This document shows positions 5,145 through 14,616 of a stretch of DNA of 16,405 bases, piece by piece (position 1 is the first letter of the stretch; every line of letters starts with the position of its first letter). The notes below the pieces were generated by a model. The model did not search any database and was not told where the DNA came from. It saw only the letters and a program-made list of their open reading frames with translations. A program made the translations under genes and the position numbers. The stretch covers positions 1 through 16,405 of the forward strand of contig JALGZR010000084.1 in NCBI GenBank assembly GCA_025774805.1, given 5' to 3'. The DNA comes from a bacterium. Lineage in GTDB: Bacteria > ARS69.

Positions 5145-6050
5145 TCAGCTCCCCTTCTTGCGGCAGACGCACTCGAGGGTCCGGGTGAGCAGATCCTCGC
5201 GGGAGAATCCCCGCTCTCGCGCCCGTTCCTCGACCTGCGGCGTGAGGAGGTCCTCTCCTTCGCGGGTGAGGACCTCGTCGATCACCGCGATCTCGGTCGC
5301 GAAGATCTCGCGGTACTGATCGAGCTTGAGCCCGTTCAGGTACGTGTTCACCGGGAACCGCTTCTCGAAGAGGTGATCCCACGGCGGCACCTTGGAAGAA
5401 GGGCGCCGATCGGGATCGATCCACTCGAGATGGTGGCCGCCCGACGGGCTCGGGAAGAGATGCGCCCCGATCCACGCCGCACCGGACGGTTTGAGCACGC
5501 GGTTGACCTCCCGGACGGCCCCGCGGACGTTCTCGACGTGCTCGAAGACCCAGGAGGAGTGGACGAAGTCGAAGTGGTCGTCCGGAAACGAGAGGCGGTC
5601 CGCGTCCACGGTCCGGATCTCGATCCCCTCGTGCGAGATCGGCTTACCGTAGCGCGACGACAGCTCCGAGAGGAACCGGCGATCGAACAGGGCGTGGCGG
5701 AGCGCCGACTTGACGGCGCGCTCGAAACCGTTCGTCCTCGCCACGTGGAGGAACACCTTCGGACTCATGCGGTACGTCGGGATCTCGATGTCGATTCCGA
5801 CGACGCTCGCGCCCTCCGCCCGGAAGAGCGCGGTCTGAGTGGCCGTCTGGCCGCACCCCACGTCCAGAATCGTGGCGCGCTCGATTGCGGCGCCCGCGTG
5901 CCGGTCGATCAGCTCCATCATGCGGCGGTGATGACGCAGGGCGGTCTCGACGTTCGCCAGGGTCCCCGTTCGGTAGGCCCGGAGGATGTTCCAGGAGGAG
6001 CGGAAGCGGTCGAGGAGCGGGATGTCCTGACCGCTCATGGAGGCTTTCAT
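5145..6050 (-). CDS. Class I SAM-dependent methyltransferase
   Basis: 301 residues from ATG 6050. It has the SAM-binding motif ILDVGCGQT (residues 61-69), an acidic end of strand 2 in VVGIDIEIP (about 83-91), TVDADRLSFPDDHFDFV (about 147-163, the motif II/post-I acidic region), and VFEHVENVRGAVREVNRVLKPSG (about 168-190). This is the usual layout of the Methyltransf_11/UbiE-like group. The C-terminal third (from about 200) is a variable substrate region with HLEW, WDHLFEKRFPVNTYLNG and no recognised signature. The longer frame reaching back to 6338 is unlikely to be coding, because residues before 6050 are Arg/Pro/Ser-rich and would run into the leader of the divergent operon. ATG 6038 is an alternative start. 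The substrate is unknown. It is transcribed away from the methyl-transfer operon, and a functional link cannot be shown. Confidence 0.88.
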   Translation of the reverse strand: MKASMSGQDIPLLDRFRSSWNILRAYRTGTLANVETALRHHRRMMELIDRHAGAAIERATILDVGCGQTATQTALFRAEGASVVGIDIEIPTYRMSPKVFLHVARTNGFERAVKSALRHALFDRRFLSELSSRYGKPISHEGIEIRTVDADRLSFPDDHFDFVHSSWVFEHVENVRGAVREVNRVLKPSGAAWIGAHLFPSPSGGHHLEWIDPDRRPSSKVPPWDHLFEKRFPVNTYLNGLKLDQYREIFATEIAVIDEVLTREGEDLLTPQVEERARERGFSREDLLTRTLECVCRKKGS

Positions 6051-6108
6051 TCCGACGCTTTCGCTCCGCTCTCGGGGACTTTCCGGGGACGGGGAAGGGT
6101 AGACGACC

Positions 6109-6114
6109 ATTCTA
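6109..6114 (-). promoter_or_regulatory. Candidate -10 element for the methyltransferase gene
   Basis: On the minus strand TAGAAT (6114 to 6109) is a 5-of-6 match to TATAAT, about 60 bases before the chosen ATG at 6050. No convincing -35 hexamer lies 16-18 bases further upstream, so this is only a candidate. Confidence 0.25.
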
Positions 6115-6167
6115 GCGCATTTCGGTCCGCGTCCCTCGGATTTCGGAGCAAGATTTGGTTCCGACGG

Positions 6168-6199
6168 CGGGGGAGGACATCGTAATCTTCTCTCCCCCG
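6168..6199. promoter_or_regulatory. 8-bp inverted repeat flanking a possible -10, upstream of the methyl-transfer operon
   Basis: CGGGGGAG (6168-6175) and CTCCCCCG (6192-6199) form a perfect 8-bp inverted repeat with a 16-base spacer. The spacer contains TAATCT (6183-6188), the best -10-like hexamer on the plus strand in the 199-bp divergent gap. The arrangement could be an operator around a promoter or a leader hairpin about 50 bases before the corrinoid-protein start. The rest of the gap (6051-6249) shows no B12-box-like or other riboswitch core that I can recognise. Confidence 0.3.
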
Positions 6200-6238
6200 A
6201 TCCGGCGGGCTCGGCCGCCGCTCTCCCGTTCCGTCTTC

Positions 6239-6245
6239 GAGGAGG
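6239..6245 (+). promoter_or_regulatory. Strong Shine-Dalgarno for the first gene of the operon
   Basis: GAGGAGG lies 4 bases before ATG 6250. It is one of the strongest ribosome-binding sites in the window and fixes the start of the corrinoid-protein gene. Confidence 0.7.
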
Positions 6246-6249
6246 TTTC

Positions 6250-6909
6250 ATGGACACGACAGAGCTCCGGCGGTTGCAGAGAAAGGCCGTGCTCGACGGA
6301 GACGTCGCCGCGGCGACGCGGCTCGCCCGGGACGCCATCGAGACCGGGAACGATCTTCACGCCTTCATCGACGACGGATTCGTCGCCGGAATCCAGGAGG
6401 TGGGACGGCTCTGGGAGGAGGGCGAGTACTTCCTGCCCGAGCTGATGCAGAGCGCGGACGCGATGAAGGCCGCCATGAACGTGCTGCGGCCCGAGCTTCT
6501 CCGGAAGGGGCGGGCGACGGGATCCGGCGTCAAGACCGTCATCGGAACCGTGCAGGGGGACATCCACGACATCGGGAAGACTCTCGTCGCCACGTTCCTC
6601 GAGGCGAACGGCTTCGAGGTCATCGATCTGGGCCGCGACGTACCGCTCCCCGACTTCGTCGAGACCGCGGTCCGGGAGAACGCCCGGCTCATCTGCCTCT
6701 CCGCGCTCCTGACGACCACCATGCCCGGGCACGGAAGGGTGATCGAGCTCCTGAACGAGGCCGGACGGAAAGAGGAGATCGCCGTCCTGGTGGGGGGCGC
6801 GCCGGTGACGCGCCGCTTCGCCGACGAGATCGGGGCCGACGGCTGGGCCGTCAACGCGGTCGATGCGGTGGGCGAGGCGCGTCGTCTGTCCGAGGCGGCC
6901 GGTGCGTAA
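6250..6909 (+). CDS. Corrinoid (B12-binding) methyl-carrier protein, MttC/MtbC/MtgC-like
   Basis: 219-residue cytoplasmic protein that carries a methyl group on the cobalt of a corrinoid cofactor. The N-terminal helical cap domain (to about residue 90) has the family pattern AIETGNDL...FIDDGFVAGIQEVGRLWEEGEYFLPEL..SADAMKAA. The C-terminal Rossmann-like domain begins VIGTVQGDIHDIGK, with the DxHxxG signature at Asp104, His106 and Gly109. His106 is the expected lower axial ligand to cobalt. Further conserved points are the LSALLTTTM loop (about 155-163) and VLVGGAPVT (about 178-187). Size and layout equal those of the small corrinoid proteins of methylamine and glycine-betaine methyltransferase systems and of the cobalamin module of MetH. 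It is first in a four-gene operon and is the natural partner of all three downstream proteins. Which MtxC subtype it is cannot be fixed from sequence alone. Confidence 0.95.
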   Translation: MDTTELRRLQRKAVLDGDVAAATRLARDAIETGNDLHAFIDDGFVAGIQEVGRLWEEGEYFLPELMQSADAMKAAMNVLRPELLRKGRATGSGVKTVIGTVQGDIHDIGKTLVATFLEANGFEVIDLGRDVPLPDFVETAVRENARLICLSALLTTTMPGHGRVIELLNEAGRKEEIAVLVGGAPVTRRFADEIGADGWAVNAVDAVGEARRLSEAAGA

Positions 6910-7888
6910 AGATTTCGCGGCTCTCCTCCGCGAGCGGGTGATCCTGCTCGACGGGGGCATGGGCTCCGCCCTCATTGCCCGGGGGCTGGAGTCCGGGTCG
7001 TGTCCCGAGCTCTGGAACCTGGAACGGCCGCGGGACGTCGCCGAGATCCACGCCGCGTTCGTCCGGGCCGGAAGCGACGTCGTCCAGACGAACACGTTCG
7101 GCGGCCACCCGTCGCTCCTCGACCGGCACGGCCTCGGGGAGCGCACCGAGGAGATCCACCGGGCCGCGGCCCGAATCGCCCGCGAGGCCGCCGGCGAGGA
7201 GTGTCTCGTGGCCGGCAACCTCGGTCCGTCCGGGCTTCTCCTTCCTCCGGTGGGGGACGCCGACCCGGACCTCCTGGAGGAGGGCTTCGCCCGCCAGGTC
7301 GCGGCTCTCGAAGAGGGCGGCGTCGATTACGTCAGCGTCGAGACCATGATGGACCTGAGGGAAGCGCTCTGCGCCGTGCGCGCGGCACGGCGCGCCGGCC
7401 GCCTGCCCGTCACGGCGTGCATGACGTTCGACCGCAAGAAGCGGGGCTTCTTCACGATGATGGGCGACGAGCCGGGAGAGTGTATGCGGGCGCTGGCGGA
7501 CGAGGGGGCGATCGCCGTGGGGGCGAACTGCTCCCTCGGCAGCGAGGCCATGATCGAGCTCTGCCCGCGGCTCGTGGCGGACGCGCCGGTGCCCGTGATC
7601 GTCAAACCGAACGCCGGACTTCCGGAGACGGAGGCCGGGCGACCCGTCTACCGTCAGGATCCCCACGACTTCGCCCGGGACGGGGCGGCTCTCGTTCGGC
7701 ACGGGGCGAGCGCCGTCGGGGGATGCTGCGGCACCGATGGGCGATTCATCGCCGCTTTGAAGACCGCGCTGGAGTCGGCCGCGCAATCGGGGTCCGCCCG
7801 GGATGCGGACTCCTCGGAGCGAGGCGTCGCCCCGGACCGACCTGGCGCCTGCGGGGGCGTCGCCGGCCCCGGCGGAGACGGCGCATGA
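6902..7888 (+). CDS. Homocysteine S-methyltransferase (MetH/BHMT-type zinc domain), stand-alone
   Basis: 328 residues, a zinc-dependent barrel that binds homocysteine and accepts a methyl group to form methionine. Landmarks: ILLDGGMGSAL near the N-terminus, VVQTNTFGG (about 60-68), VAGNLGPSG (about 103), DYVSVETMMDL (about 142-152), GANCS with Cys210, and GGCCGT with Cys275 and Cys276. The three cysteines match the zinc ligands of the PF02574 family. I chose GTG 6902: it overlaps the preceding stop by 8 bases and has GAGG 6 bases upstream. ATG 6863 would add 13 residues lying inside the corrinoid gene and unlike the family. After the last barrel helix (about residue 290) comes a tail of some 40 residues rich in Gly, Ala, Asp and Ser, probably disordered. 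Gene order next to a corrinoid protein suggests methyl-corrinoid as donor, as in MetH, not betaine directly. Confidence 0.93.
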   Translation: MRKDFAALLRERVILLDGGMGSALIARGLESGSCPELWNLERPRDVAEIHAAFVRAGSDVVQTNTFGGHPSLLDRHGLGERTEEIHRAAARIAREAAGEECLVAGNLGPSGLLLPPVGDADPDLLEEGFARQVAALEEGGVDYVSVETMMDLREALCAVRAARRAGRLPVTACMTFDRKKRGFFTMMGDEPGECMRALADEGAIAVGANCSLGSEAMIELCPRLVADAPVPVIVKPNAGLPETEAGRPVYRQDPHDFARDGAALVRHGASAVGGCCGTDGRFIAALKTALESAAQSGSARDADSSERGVAPDRPGACGGVAGPGGDGA

Positions 7889-8577
7889 TGCTCGAAGGAC
7901 GGCGCGTCGAGTCGTTCTCGATCCGGATTCCCCGGGACCAGGCTCTCCGCCTGATGGGCGTGCGGGGGAAGAGGCGCGCTCCCCGGGAGTCGTTGATGGA
8001 GGTGTTCGAGGAGGAGTACGCGACCGCCGCGGAGATGGTCCGTCCGCGGGCCGTGCTGCGTTTCGCGCCCGCCGGTCTTCCCGGCTCGTCTTGGATCGCC
8101 CCCGACATGCCGCTGGTCGCGGTGGTCTGCACGATCGGCGACGTACTGGAGAAGAGAGTGAGCCGTCTGGCGGAGCAGGGGAGTGCGGCCCGCGCTCTCG
8201 TACTGGACTCGATCGGCTCCGCGGGGGCCGAGGAGGTCGCGGATCGGAGCAACCGTCTGATCTGCGAGATGGCGGCGTCCACCGACCACGTTCCGGACTG
8301 CCGGCGGAGTCCGGGCTACGGAAGCTGGGACGTCCGGGAGCAGGCGGCGATGTTCCGCTTCGTGCAGCCCGACGAGATCGGCGTGACCCTCACGGAGAGC
8401 TGCATGATGGTACCGCGCAAGTCGATCTCGTACGTCGTTCCGCTCCGGGGAGGGGAGCCGGGGAGACTGCCGGGGAACCGATGTTCGCGGTGCGGCGCCG
8501 AGGGCTGCCCCTATCGAGAGGGTGACGGCGACCACGAGGTCGACGAATCGGCTTCATCAGGAGACTTCGAATCATGA
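7885..8577 (+). CDS. Stand-alone MetH-type reactivation (Met_synt_B12) domain protein with C-terminal Cys cluster
   Basis: 230 residues. In cobalamin-dependent methionine synthase this domain binds SAM and rescues oxidised cob(II)alamin by reductive methylation; here it is a separate protein. The signature is RRSPGYGSWDVREQ (residues 140-153), with Arg141-x-x-Gly144-Tyr145 equivalent to the MetH SAM site, followed by IGVTLTESCMMVPRKSIS (about 165-182), which is nearly diagnostic. The C-terminus adds CSRCGAEGCPY (Cys200, Cys203, Cys208), absent from classical MetH and suggestive of a metal or Fe-S site, then an acidic tail. ATG 7885 overlaps the previous stop as ATGA, so translation is probably coupled. 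The role inferred is keeping the operon's corrinoid protein in the Co(I)/methyl cycle, taking the place of the RamA/RACE ferredoxin-type activators of other corrinoid methyltransferase systems. No such activator gene is seen here. Confidence 0.9.
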   Translation: MMLEGRRVESFSIRIPRDQALRLMGVRGKRRAPRESLMEVFEEEYATAAEMVRPRAVLRFAPAGLPGSSWIAPDMPLVAVVCTIGDVLEKRVSRLAEQGSAARALVLDSIGSAGAEEVADRSNRLICEMAASTDHVPDCRRSPGYGSWDVREQAAMFRFVQPDEIGVTLTESCMMVPRKSISYVVPLRGGEPGRLPGNRCSRCGAEGCPYREGDGDHEVDESASSGDFES

Positions 8578-10010
8578 GTCAGTACGTGAGACCGACGGTG
8601 CGCTTTCTCACCGAGGAGACGATTCGGGACGTCGAGGCGGAGGCGAAACGCATTCTCGAGGAGATCGGGGTCTTCGTGGAGCACGAGAGGGCCCGGGAGC
8701 TGCTCCTCCATTCCGGAGCCCGCGAGGGCCCGGGGAATCGACTGCTCATCGGCCCCGACCTCGTGGATCGCGCGCTGGCGACCGCGCCCTCCGAGGTTCT
8801 CGTGTACGACCGCGAGGGTGAGAACCCGATCCGCATCGGAGGCGACAACTTCCACTTCGACCCCGGGTCCGCGGCCATCCGGGTGTACGACTGGGAGCAA
8901 GACCGCGTCCGCCCTTCGACGACGGACGACTGCGTCCTCTTCGCGAAGCTGACCGACCGGCTCGACGCCATGGCCCTGCAGTCCACCTGTGTGGTGCCGG
9001 ACGACGTACCCCTCGAGACGGCGGACCGCACGCGCCTCTACCTCGCTCTGAAGAACGGCCGCAAGGGAGTCATCACCGGGACGTTCGCGGGCGACTCCTT
9101 CGAGGTCATGCGGCGCATGCTGGTCGCCGCCCGCGGTTCCGAGGATGCGCTTCGTCAAAAACCGCTCGCCATCTTCGACTGCTGTCCCTCGCCTCCCCTC
9201 GAGTGGAGCGAGCTCACGTGCGCGGTCCTGGTCCGGTGCGCCGAGGAGGGAATCCCGGCGGAGCTGGTCTCCATGCCCATGACCGGAGCCACCGCCCCCG
9301 TGACCCTGCTCGGGGCGGTGGCCCAGCACACGGCCGAGGACCTCTCGGGCGTCGTCATCCACCAGCTCGCGGGACCCGGCTCCCCGATCATCTACGGCGG
9401 GTCGCCGTCCGCCTTCGACATGCGGCACGGGACCACCCCCATGGGGGCGGTGGAGACGATGATGATCGACTCGGCGTACGCCCAGGTGGGGCGGCACCTC
9501 GGTCTTCCGACCCACGCGTACATGGGCCTGTCCGACTCCAAGACGCCCGACTGGCAGGCCGGCTTCGAGTCGGGATGCGGCGCGCTCCTGGCCGCGCTGA
9601 GCGGGGTGAACATGATCTCCGGACCGGGGATGCTCGACTTCGAGAGCTGCCAGAGCCCGGAGAAGCTCGTGCTCGACAACGAGGCCTGCCGGTCGGCGAT
9701 CCGGGCCGTACAGGGCATCGAGCGCCGGGAAGGTCCACTCGCCCTTCCGATCATCCGGGAGGGGATCGCGGCGGAGCAGTTTCTCGCGCTCGATCACACC
9801 CGTAAGTGGTTCCGAAAGGAGATCCACTTCCCCGGTCCGGAGATCGATCGCGCCGCCGGCGACGGGAGCGCGACGCGAAGCCGCGGATCGGCGGCCGAGC
9901 GCGCCCACGCGGAGGTGCAGCGTCTGCTGGCCGAAGAGGGGGCGCCTCCGCCGGGGGAAGACGTGCTCCGGGAGCTGGACATGCTGATCGAACTCCCGCC
10001 GCGATCTTGA
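8574..10010 (+). CDS. MttB-family methyltransferase without pyrrolysine (trimethylamine/betaine-type methyl donor enzyme)
   Basis: 478-residue cytoplasmic barrel enzyme of the trimethylamine methyltransferase superfamily (PF06253). It is expected to demethylate a quaternary or tertiary amine and pass the methyl to the corrinoid protein. Landmarks: RPTVRFLTEETI at the start, a weakly conserved N-terminal part, MTGATAPVTLLGAVAQH (about 238-254), GSPIIYGGSPSAFDMRHG (about 266-283), GLPTHAYMGLSDSKTPDWQAG (about 308-328) and ALLAALSGVNMISGPGMLD (about 333-351). The frame has no in-frame TAG, so it is one of the non-Pyl homologs, whose known members include the glycine betaine enzyme MtgB. The start overlaps the preceding stop (ATGA), with AGGAG (8559-8563) ten bases upstream. 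The C-terminal 50 residues include a Ser/Arg/Gly-rich stretch and a helix. The substrate cannot be read from sequence; glycine betaine, proline betaine, carnitine and butyrobetaine are all possible. Confidence 0.93.
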   Translation: MSQYVRPTVRFLTEETIRDVEAEAKRILEEIGVFVEHERARELLLHSGAREGPGNRLLIGPDLVDRALATAPSEVLVYDREGENPIRIGGDNFHFDPGSAAIRVYDWEQDRVRPSTTDDCVLFAKLTDRLDAMALQSTCVVPDDVPLETADRTRLYLALKNGRKGVITGTFAGDSFEVMRRMLVAARGSEDALRQKPLAIFDCCPSPPLEWSELTCAVLVRCAEEGIPAELVSMPMTGATAPVTLLGAVAQHTAEDLSGVVIHQLAGPGSPIIYGGSPSAFDMRHGTTPMGAVETMMIDSAYAQVGRHLGLPTHAYMGLSDSKTPDWQAGFESGCGALLAALSGVNMISGPGMLDFESCQSPEKLVLDNEACRSAIRAVQGIERREGPLALPIIREGIAAEQFLALDHTRKWFRKEIHFPGPEIDRAAGDGSATRSRGSAAERAHAEVQRLLAEEGAPPPGEDVLRELDMLIELPPRS

Positions 10011-12260: not shown

Positions 12261-13469
12261 CTACGGTGCGTCGACCCGTCCGGCCCCGGCCCGCAGCTCA
12301 CGGAAGGCGAAGATGCCGGTGTCGTGGCCGTCACTCCAGGTCGGCTGGAGGGCGTAGCGTCCCACGGTGCGGATCCGGACCGGTCGGACGTCGGCCGGGA
12401 CCTGATCGAGGGAGGGGAGCTTCTCGCCGGTCCACTCCTCGACGCACCCCGCGCAGGGACAGGCCTTCCGCAGCTCGTACGTGCCATGGTACGTCGTCGC
12501 GCCGTCGCCCCACCGGATGCCGAGCACGGTATCGGCCGCCTGCCACACCGCGACGGCGGTCTGCGGTGATCCACCGCGCGCCGTCTCCGCGGCCGGGGTC
12601 GGGGGGTCGGCCCGAACCACGCCCTTCTCCAGGGACTCCCACGTCACCTCGAAGTCGCCGGCGCCGCCGCGACCGCGACTCGCCAGCTCGGCCGTCAACG
12701 CGCCCGCGATGGCGTCGAACGCGCGCCCGATCGGTCCGTCCGGATCGGTCGCCACGATCGGGGTCCCCGTGTCGGAACCGGTCACGACGGCGGGATCGAT
12801 CGGGAGCCTTCCGAGAAACGGGATTCCGAGCTCGAGCGAGGCTCGCTCTCCCACGCCCTCGCCGAACAGCCCGACGCGCTCGCCGCAGTCGTCGCAGACG
12901 AATTCCGACATGTTCTCGACGAGTCCGAGGACGGGCACCGAGAGCTGCTCGAACCCCTGGATCCCCCGGTACGTGTCGGCGAGGCTCATCGTCGAGGGCG
13001 TGGTCACCGACACGACGCCGGAGAGCGTCACCGACTGTCCGAGGCCGATGATCGCGTCCCCGGTGCCGGGCGGCATGTCGACGACCAGAACGTCGAGCGT
13101 TCCCCAGTCGATTCCGCCCAGGAGCTGTCCGAGCGCCTGCGACACCATGGGTCCGCGCCAGATGATCGGGGCCCCGTCGGCGGCCACGTTCGCGATCGAG
13201 AGGAACTTTACCCCGTGTCGCTCGCGGGGAAGCACCGATCCCGGACGCGGCGCGGCGGCGGGAGGAGAGGCATCCCCGAACATGTGAGCGATCGAGGGCC
13301 CGTGGATGTCGCCGTCGAGAAGCCCGACGGCCGCTCCCTTGCGGGCGAGCGCGACGGCCAGGTTGGCGGCCACGGTCGACTTCCCGACCCCGCCCTTCGC
13401 GGAGTGGACGACGACGATCTCTCGCACGTCGGCGAGGAAGTCGATCGGTGGGGGGGCGGACGAGGCCAC
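12261..13469 (-). CDS. Mrp/ApbC-type Fe-S cluster carrier ATPase fused to a C-terminal DUF971 domain
   Basis: 402-residue cytoplasmic protein. The N-terminal P-loop ATPase begins with a deviant Walker A AKGGVGKST (residues 24-32). It continues with LLDGDIHGPSIAHMFG (about 50-65), VVVDMPPGTGDA (about 128-139), TTPSTMSLAD (about 156-165) and the cluster-binding CxxC at Cys192/Cys195. After a linker (about 265-310) comes DUF971 (PF06155-like, about 314-392): IRWGDG, RKACPCAGC, VRIRTVGRYALQPTWSDGHDTGIFAF. The start is GTG 13469 with GGAGG five bases upstream. There is no N-terminal DUF59 domain, unlike the gene upstream. DUF971 is best known at the C-terminus of plant HCF101, a 4Fe-4S carrier. 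The gene starts 21 bases after the stop of its paralog, so they are probably co-transcribed. Confidence 0.94.
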   Translation of the reverse strand: MASSAPPPIDFLADVREIVVVHSAKGGVGKSTVAANLAVALARKGAAVGLLDGDIHGPSIAHMFGDASPPAAAPRPGSVLPRERHGVKFLSIANVAADGAPIIWRGPMVSQALGQLLGGIDWGTLDVLVVDMPPGTGDAIIGLGQSVTLSGVVSVTTPSTMSLADTYRGIQGFEQLSVPVLGLVENMSEFVCDDCGERVGLFGEGVGERASLELGIPFLGRLPIDPAVVTGSDTGTPIVATDPDGPIGRAFDAIAGALTAELASRGRGGAGDFEVTWESLEKGVVRADPPTPAAETARGGSPQTAVAVWQAADTVLGIRWGDGATTYHGTYELRKACPCAGCVEEWTGEKLPSLDQVPADVRPVRIRTVGRYALQPTWSDGHDTGIFAFRELRAGAGRVDAP

Positions 13470-13490: not shown

Positions 13491-14549
13491 TCAGCTCAGC
13501 ACGCGGAACGGGTTCCGCCGCATCGAAACGGAGCCCGCCCGGGCGGCCACGGCCACGGCGAGCTCCCGGTAGGGGACGGCGCTGGGGGAGTCGTCGAGAG
13601 CGACGGGGCGGCCGGCGTCCCCCTGCCGCCGCGCGACCGGATCGATCGGGACCTGGGCGAGCAGCGGAACCCCTTCCCGCTCGGCGAGCGCCTTCCCTCC
13701 GTCCCTCCCGAAGATGTGGTGCCGCTTGCCGCACTTCGGACACGGGAAGTGCGCCATGTTCTCCACGATGCCGAGGATCTCGACCTTGTTGTCGCGGAAC
13801 ATCGTCAGTCCCTTGCGGGCGTCGATGAGCGCGATCTCCTGCGGCGTCGTCACGATGACCGCTCCGGTGATCGGAACCGAGTCCACCAGGGTGAGCTGCA
13901 CGTCGCCGGTGCCGGGCGGCAAGTCGAGGACGAGGTAGTCGAGCTCGCCCCAATCCGCCTGGACGATCTGCCCGACGAGCTTGTGGAGCATGGGGCCCCG
14001 CCACAGGAACGCCCGACCCGGCTCCGCGAGCATCCCCATCGAGAGGAGCTTCACTCCGTGGGCGGAAGCCGGCACGAGTCGCTGGTCCTCCGTGACCTGC
14101 GGAGGGCCGGCGGACCCCATCGCCACGACGCTATTGGGGCCGTAGATGTCCAGATCGGCGAGGCCGGTGGCGGCGCCGAGCCGAGCGAGCCCCACCGCCA
14201 GGTTCGACGCGACGGTCGACTTCCCGACACCGCCCTTTCCGCTGGCCACGACGATCACGGTGCGGACGCCCGGCACCTTCGGCTTCGCGAAGTCGGTCTC
14301 TCTCACCCGCCAGCCCGGCTCGACCTCGACCCGCTCCACGCCCGGAAGGGCGGAGATCGCCTCCCGGACCTGCCGGGAGATGTCCTCGGTCGCCGGGTGC
14401 TCCGGGGAGGGCATCTCGAGGGAAAGGCGGACCGTGCCGCCCTCGACGCGAGGGCTTTTGACGATCTCGAGATCGACGAGGTCCTTGGCGTGGCCTTCGA
14501 AGCGAAGCGCGCGCAGCGCCCCGAGGACCTGTTCGACGGAGACGGACAT
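13491..14549 (-). CDS. mrp: Mrp/ApbC Fe-S cluster carrier ATPase with N-terminal DUF59 (MIP18-like) domain
   Basis: 352-residue cytoplasmic protein that binds and transfers Fe-S clusters to target apoproteins. Residues 1-80 are the DUF59/MIP18-like domain (VEQVLGALRAL, DLVDLEIVKS, ISALPGVERVEVEPGW). The ATPase follows with Walker A GKGGVGKST (104-112), GLADLDIYGPNSVVAMG (about 129-145), LVLDLPPGTGDVQLTL (about 206-221), TTPQEIALIDARKGLTMF (about 234-251) and the cluster ligands in PCPKCG (Cys270, Cys273). The layout and length match standard bacterial Mrp/ApbC. ATG 14549 is the natural domain start but lacks a recognisable ribosome site. The same frame runs open far upstream to 16304, but that part is a shadow of the phosphoesterase gene. 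It is the first gene of the mrp-mrp-yggX cluster. Confidence 0.95.
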   Translation of the reverse strand: MSVSVEQVLGALRALRFEGHAKDLVDLEIVKSPRVEGGTVRLSLEMPSPEHPATEDISRQVREAISALPGVERVEVEPGWRVRETDFAKPKVPGVRTVIVVASGKGGVGKSTVASNLAVGLARLGAATGLADLDIYGPNSVVAMGSAGPPQVTEDQRLVPASAHGVKLLSMGMLAEPGRAFLWRGPMLHKLVGQIVQADWGELDYLVLDLPPGTGDVQLTLVDSVPITGAVIVTTPQEIALIDARKGLTMFRDNKVEILGIVENMAHFPCPKCGKRHHIFGRDGGKALAEREGVPLLAQVPIDPVARRQGDAGRPVALDDSPSAVPYRELAVAVAARAGSVSMRRNPFRVLS

Positions 14550-14616
14550 GGAAAACCGGACCGGTGGGGGAGGAATGGAGGAGGAGTGGCGGAGATCCCG
14601 CCGCGAGCAACCCTCA

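Follow-up and report, generated by a model that had tools for sequence, protein, structure and literature searches.

The stretch of DNA considered here (the window, 16,405 nt) is the whole of contig JALGZR010000084.1 (C24) of a 5.1 Mb bacterial metagenome-assembled genome (MAG; completeness 96%, contamination 5%). Positions 6250-10010 of its plus strand carry four genes, for a corrinoid protein (corr), a zinc homocysteine methyltransferase (hcy), a reactivator of the type found in the methionine synthase MetH (act) and an MttB-family methyltransferase without pyrrolysine (Pyl) (mttB). This assignment, made in a preliminary description of the window, is supported by Pfam, and the four genes are a candidate for a methionine synthase split into separate proteins. 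The features are:

6225..6249, plus strand: leader with the AGGAGG ribosome-binding site of the first gene (sequence)
6250..6909, plus strand: corrinoid (methyl carrier) protein, 219 aa, cap and B12-binding domain (PF02310/PF02607)
6902..7888, plus strand: MetH-type zinc homocysteine S-methyltransferase, 328 aa (PF02574, S-methyl_trans, 9e-63)
7885..8577, plus strand: predicted stand-alone MetH-type cobalamin reactivation protein, 230 aa (partial PF02965, fold match 1j6r)
8574..10010, plus strand: non-Pyl MttB-family methyltransferase of a distinct subfamily, 478 aa (PF06253, MTTB, 8e-82; fold; tree)

All three gene junctions overlap: hcy begins with a GTG at 6902 laid over the corrinoid TAA, and ATGA overlaps follow at 7885 and 8574. 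AGGAG(G) ribosome-binding sites lie upstream of genes 1 and 4; no riboswitch was found at the Rfam gathering threshold in the window or in nine related loci, and sigma-70 promoters were not found. The corrinoid protein matches the B12-binding (3e-26) and cap (1e-21) profiles and contains the DIHDIGK motif, as GDIHDIGK, together with SALLTTTM; its best NCBIfam match, pyl_corrinoid TIGR02370, scores 210.6 bits, slightly under the cut-off of 215.3. The second protein is a MetH-type homocysteine S-methyltransferase by its PF02574 profile, its zinc cysteines and a TNTFG motif, which presumably stands instead of the pattern of betaine-homocysteine methyltransferase (BHMT). Its best PDB match is the N-terminal half of Thermotoga maritima MetH (1q7m, 3e-48), and its top PDB matches are MetH proteins, with BHMT ranked behind. 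The zinc ligands Cys210, Cys275 and Cys276 are numbered exactly when the start is placed at 6902, and the C..CC pattern is kept across the aligned related loci. Checked against the sequence, all residue numbers and motifs of the preliminary description were correct.

The third protein matches Pfam Met_synt_B12 (PF02965) weakly (E 7e-7) and within its C-terminal part (residues 140-183), and a PDB sequence search likewise gave a weak match to TM0269 of T. maritima (E 0.011). The best PDB match of an AlphaFold2 model, built from a 13-sequence alignment with a predicted local distance difference test score (pLDDT) of 83, is also TM0269 (1j6r; E 4.5e-10, TM-score (target) 0.77), and each of the 19 PDB matches at E<=0.001 is a MetH reactivation domain or a fragment that contains one. 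Because the fold matches are TM0269 and MetH reactivation domains, the model indicates that the third gene encodes a free MetH-type reactivator and that the weak Pfam match is not due to chance. The R-x-S-P-G-Y motif is kept in the window reactivator and in many, not all, members. A C-x2-C-x4-C tail (C200, C203, C208; positions 8482-8510) is invariant in all 13 homologues aligned; it is absent, on comparison, from the host's own MetH, and the alignment to TM0269 ends at most 9 residues from the TM0269 C-terminus, leaving no room for it. These cysteines possibly form a metal or iron-sulfur (Fe-S) site.

The fourth protein belongs to the MttB superfamily by its PF06253 profile and fold, and its AlphaFold2 model (pLDDT 88) matches MtgB and MttB equally, with TM-scores of 0.91-0.92. 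It shares 44-56% identity (tblastn) with most members of its subfamily and ~30% with other MttBs; MttBs in a plasmid collection, including those of alphaproteobacterial plasmids, are only ~30% identical, and in the four regions examined the annotation shows neither a homocysteine nor a corrinoid gene next to them. The enzyme is indeed non-Pyl: the gene contains no Pyl codon, Leu319 occupies the Pyl position, and Gly110 and Tyr364, the partners of the Pyl site in MttB, are replaced by Ser99 and Ser349. A Pyl-type trimethylamine methyltransferase was rejected on the lack of an in-frame UAG and on these three diagnostic positions. The Rfam model PYLIS_3 matches the mttB coding sequences of five related loci (L041:7960-8057, L042:5407-5506, L047:7940-8039, L048:1667-1763, L039:2401-2504) and has no match in the window; these genes read through without UAG, and the model detects plain coding similarity.

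Known MttB substrates include trimethylamine, carboxylate-bearing quaternary amines and phosphocholine (PMC12155760). For MtgB, Y94, N199, R309 and H345 were proposed to bind glycine betaine (PMC6855144); in the window protein they correspond to S99, C204, H314 and S349, and F353 to E357, once the published residue numbers are shifted by one to fit the PDB chain. With all four proposed betaine residues replaced, assignment as the glycine betaine methyltransferase MtgB was rejected. All the subfamily members compared have S99 and C204, and nearly all have E357. The subfamily thus appears to have a pocket of its own, and these residues support neither glycine betaine nor trimethylamine as the substrate; the osmolyte or choline-derived methyl source that had been suggested finds no support. 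Among the neighbours scanned in other carriers there is no betaine, choline or methylamine gene, nor do the neighbour genes (S9 peptidase, DNA methylase, permease, aminotransferase, others) share a substrate theme.

The four proteins probably constitute a folate-independent methyl donor:homocysteine methyltransferase, that is, a split methionine synthase. MttB would take a methyl group from a small methylated compound and pass it to Co(I) of the corrinoid protein, from which the zinc homocysteine enzyme would transfer it to homocysteine to yield methionine. Corrinoid oxidized to Co(II) would be rescued by the stand-alone MetH-type protein through reductive methylation with S-adenosylmethionine (SAM), and this protein would replace the ATP-dependent RamA of other MttB systems. 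The gene content, overlaps, folds and conserved metal and cobalamin motifs are directly observed, as are the recurrence of the set in distant phyla and the absences in the host; the direction of transfer, the use of SAM, the substrate class and the specificity of the partners for each other are what we infer from them. Since searches of the host revealed neither RamA nor a separate corrinoid:folate methyltransferase, the most economical route leads from the MttB donor to homocysteine as acceptor, and MttB to corrinoid protein to homocysteine is the best-supported reading.

The host searches bear directly on the acceptor. PF00809, the folate-binding module, is missing from the window, and its copies in the host occur only in FolP (FtsH-FolP context) and in MetH's own domain. 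As MtgA is a divergent protein (PMC7154762), PF02007 was searched in addition; no MtrH/MtgA-family protein was found in the host, and control genomes gave matches. A free pterin methyltransferase, including the pterin protein MtgD, and a RACo/RamA-type activator were likewise not found in the host, which has a single MttB. The earlier proposal that MttB replaces the folate module is borne out in that the unit contains no such module and a separate corrinoid:folate methyltransferase was not found in the host. A complete MetH as the class of the operon was rejected, there being no folate-binding module in any chain or elsewhere in the operon.

A scan of 84,980 genomes for the MttB subfamily yielded 25 loci. 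The complete four-part set occurs in five further genomes and in two gene orders. The order of the window, which the preliminary description had proposed to search for, recurs as corr-hcy-act-mttB in Eisenbacteria (L032), in the uncultured bacterium GB_MAG SS3 (L041) and, with corr and hcy fused, in Riflebacteria (L037); the order mttB-act-corr-hcy is found in Cloacimonadota (L039) and Planctomycetota (L048). At L037:4972-6300 corr and hcy share one frame and the first ~50 hcy residues are missing, which reflects either a fusion or an assembly error. Two loci (L038, L043) read mttB-act-corr up to the contig end, and three-gene versions are found in KSB1 (hcy-act-mttB), Chloroflexota (mttB-corr-hcy) and, at three loci, Lokiarchaeota (corr-hcy-mttB), these Asgard archaeal sets being without a reactivator gene. 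Full and three-gene sets are scattered over the tree of the MttB subfamily, so the linkage is either old or was re-formed repeatedly. Chance does not account for the combination, which recurs in distant phyla, and the four proteins are a conserved unit, as had been proposed. An Anaerolineaceae locus (L045:5049-9146) reads RACo-mttB-corr, without a homocysteine gene or reactivator; judging from this one case, members of the subfamily may have either RACo or the MetH-type reactivator but not both.

At two loci (L021, L023), a reactivator and a homocysteine gene are adjacent without mttB. The pair at L021:5065-7645 (G028) adjoins a UroD-family-like methyltransferase, judged by eye, and no MttB or corrinoid match lies near it; L021 may represent the same homocysteine branch served by another donor module.

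Several observations weigh against the proposed split methionine synthase. Methionine synthesis in the host does not depend on the operon, because a complete MetH (1199 aa, above the curated cut-off) is encoded there and includes a reactivation domain. Six subfamily members (L033, L049, L050, L051, L052, L056) have no linked homocysteine gene. MtrH-type proteins are encoded elsewhere in the genome in three Lokiarchaeota, and in no other carriers searched; in those archaea the methyl group may therefore go to a different acceptor. The reactivator corresponds to a MetH domain without its N-terminal part, which makes SAM binding putative. The MetH proteins of G062 (C53) and G065 (C89), ~816-819 aa long, match only model positions 1-864 and therefore lack a reactivation domain; both genomes have a free reactivator beside mttB, which may thus serve that MetH too, and more generally the free reactivator could also serve a separate MetH.

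The preliminary description had asked whether the host lacks metE and full-length metH: no MetE-type protein (PF01717) was found, but MetH is complete. Of the two findings that it had set against its own reading, a complete MetH and an MtgA-like acceptor, the host presents the first, and the second was not found. The host also encodes a 650 aa homocysteine methyltransferase/MetF-like protein, whose length suggests a MetF half, and in this organism the set is most likely an extra methionine synthase, not the sole one.

Other carriers differ in this respect. Among 14 carrier genomes surveyed, no MetH was found in G060 (Eisenbacteria), G063 and G070 (Cloacimonadota), G066-G068 (Lokiarchaeota) and G073 (KSB1). 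Apart from stray corrinoid proteins, the metH model picks up only homocysteine and corrinoid parts in these genomes, together with the reactivator in G063. PF01717 is absent from the host and from 13 of the 14 carriers, only G070 being positive, which leaves six carriers (G060, G063, G066-G068, G073) with neither MetH nor a MetE-type protein, and in most of these six the matched parts share one contig; in MAGs whose completeness is not reported, these absences are suggestive.

The same data bear on an alternative in which the system is a catabolic demethylase: its purpose would be to demethylate the MttB substrate, with homocysteine and methionine serving only as a sink and methionine converted to SAM or excreted. 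Most MttB enzymes serve catabolism (PMC12155760), a host with MetH can do without extra methionine synthesis, and at L041 the gene next after the cluster encodes an amino acid permease; yet in several carriers a further methionine synthase was not found, and the scanned neighbourhoods are free of betaine, choline and methylamine genes. On balance we regard this alternative as unlikely. Still less probable is that the genes do not form one system, so that MttB and the corrinoid protein methylate a folate acceptor or the host MetH and the homocysteine enzyme acts alone, on S-methylmethionine or betaine. MtgB systems normally employ MtgA and tetrahydrofolate (H4folate), the host MetH is a possible methyl acceptor, and the stand-alone Bmt of Phaeobacter inhibens is active in vitro with betaine or dimethylsulfoniopropionate (PMC12366255). 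Against this stand the lack of a free MtgA or MtgD in the host, the tight gene overlaps, the co-conservation in two orders and in archaea, and the MetH-type character of the homocysteine enzyme, with its TNTFG motif and its closest PDB relatives among MetH proteins before BHMT.

The origin of the contig also has to be weighed, since the MAG carries 5% contamination and neither MttB nor the reactivator was found in the remaining four genomes of the host phylum. A contig misplaced during binning, or an operon created by misassembly, is nevertheless very improbable. A phosphorylase at one contig end is 68-70% identical to all 4 host-family genomes and at most 54% elsewhere; on the other flank, mrp1 and an adjoining small gene are 56-57% identical in the host-family genome G002; and the GC content of the contig is 0.688, against 0.68 elsewhere. 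The same gene set is moreover present in unrelated assemblies. A binning artefact was rejected on the flank similarities, and by these sequence comparisons the contig belongs to the host. Given the lack of MttB and reactivator matches in the other four genomes of the phylum, the operon was either gained in the host lineage or lost in the others.

The closest known systems are MtgBCDE of Ruegeria pomeroyi and the split methionine synthase of P. inhibens (PMC12478193, 2025; PMC5764234), which couple the demethylation of a quaternary amine, glycine betaine in R. pomeroyi, to methionine synthesis through one corrinoid protein. Like the window set, they have an MttB-family protein, a free corrinoid protein and a free MetH-type homocysteine enzyme, but they need the free pterin protein MtgD and are reactivated by RamA and DUF1638. 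The window set has no pterin protein and no RamA, and its operon includes a stand-alone reactivator of the MetH type; in P. inhibens, PF02965 members were not found. MetH shares the homocysteine, corrinoid and reactivation modules but joins them in one chain with a folate module, in place of which the window has MttB among separate proteins. T. maritima pairs its MetH, TM0268, with the stand-alone reactivation protein TM0269 (Huang 2007, as cited in PMC7857596); TM0269 is a free protein with the same fold as the window reactivator, but TM0268 retains the folate module that the window set lacks. MtgB, MtcB, MtpB, MtyB and MthB of Desulfitobacterium and Eubacterium (PMC12155760; PMC6855144) also combine a non-Pyl MttB with a corrinoid protein; there the methyl group goes to H4folate (MtgA-type) or coenzyme M, with activation by RamA or RamQ, and the betaine residues are not kept in the window MttB. 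The core methionine synthases MesA-D are folate-free, and MesA-C are proposed to take the methyl group from a corrinoid protein (PMC7857596), but they are of the MetE type (PF01717), which the host lacks. MtaA-like clusters, in which the methyl group possibly also ends in methionine, use UroD-family enzymes and RACE proteins (PMC10418091).

The earlier remark that no description of exactly this four-part set was known is weakened by MtgBCDE, a close precedent with a different composition (PMC12478193, 2025); literature word searches, with subscription journals mostly outside their coverage, returned no paper on the set itself. The link between MttB and a split methionine synthase was thus already known, and what is new here is a folate-free variant with a TM0269-like reactivator bearing the conserved C-x2-C-x4-C tail. 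A more specific version of the proposal, which we advance tentatively and at somewhat less than even chances, gives candidate phyla and Asgard archaea a methionine synthase that needs no folate and in which an MttB with the pocket S99, C204, H/Q314, S349 and E357 supplies methyl groups to homocysteine; it would be the sole methionine synthase in some carriers, and in the bacterial ones its reactivator would be the protein with the Cys-rich metal/Fe-S tail, not RamA. If the proposed function is right, methionine would be made directly from a methylated compound without folate one-carbon chemistry, which would explain methionine synthesis in some uncultured lineages, including Asgard archaea, that have no recognisable MetH or MetE. 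It would also give a function and an acceptor to an MttB subfamily currently annotated as trimethylamine methyltransferase and would bring MetH-type reactivation into a methylotrophic enzyme system, and it would caution against taking such mttB genes as a sign of methylamine or betaine metabolism.

Two further features lie outside the operon. Upstream and divergent from it, on the minus strand, is a methyltransferase gene (5145-6338) whose product matches the CpaM family ('corrinoid protein-associated methyltransferase') weakly, at 34.8 bits, below the cut-off of 180. Farther along the minus strand, two adjacent genes (12261-13469 and 13491-14610) encode Mrp/ApbC-type P-loop ATPase-like proteins, named by sequence only.

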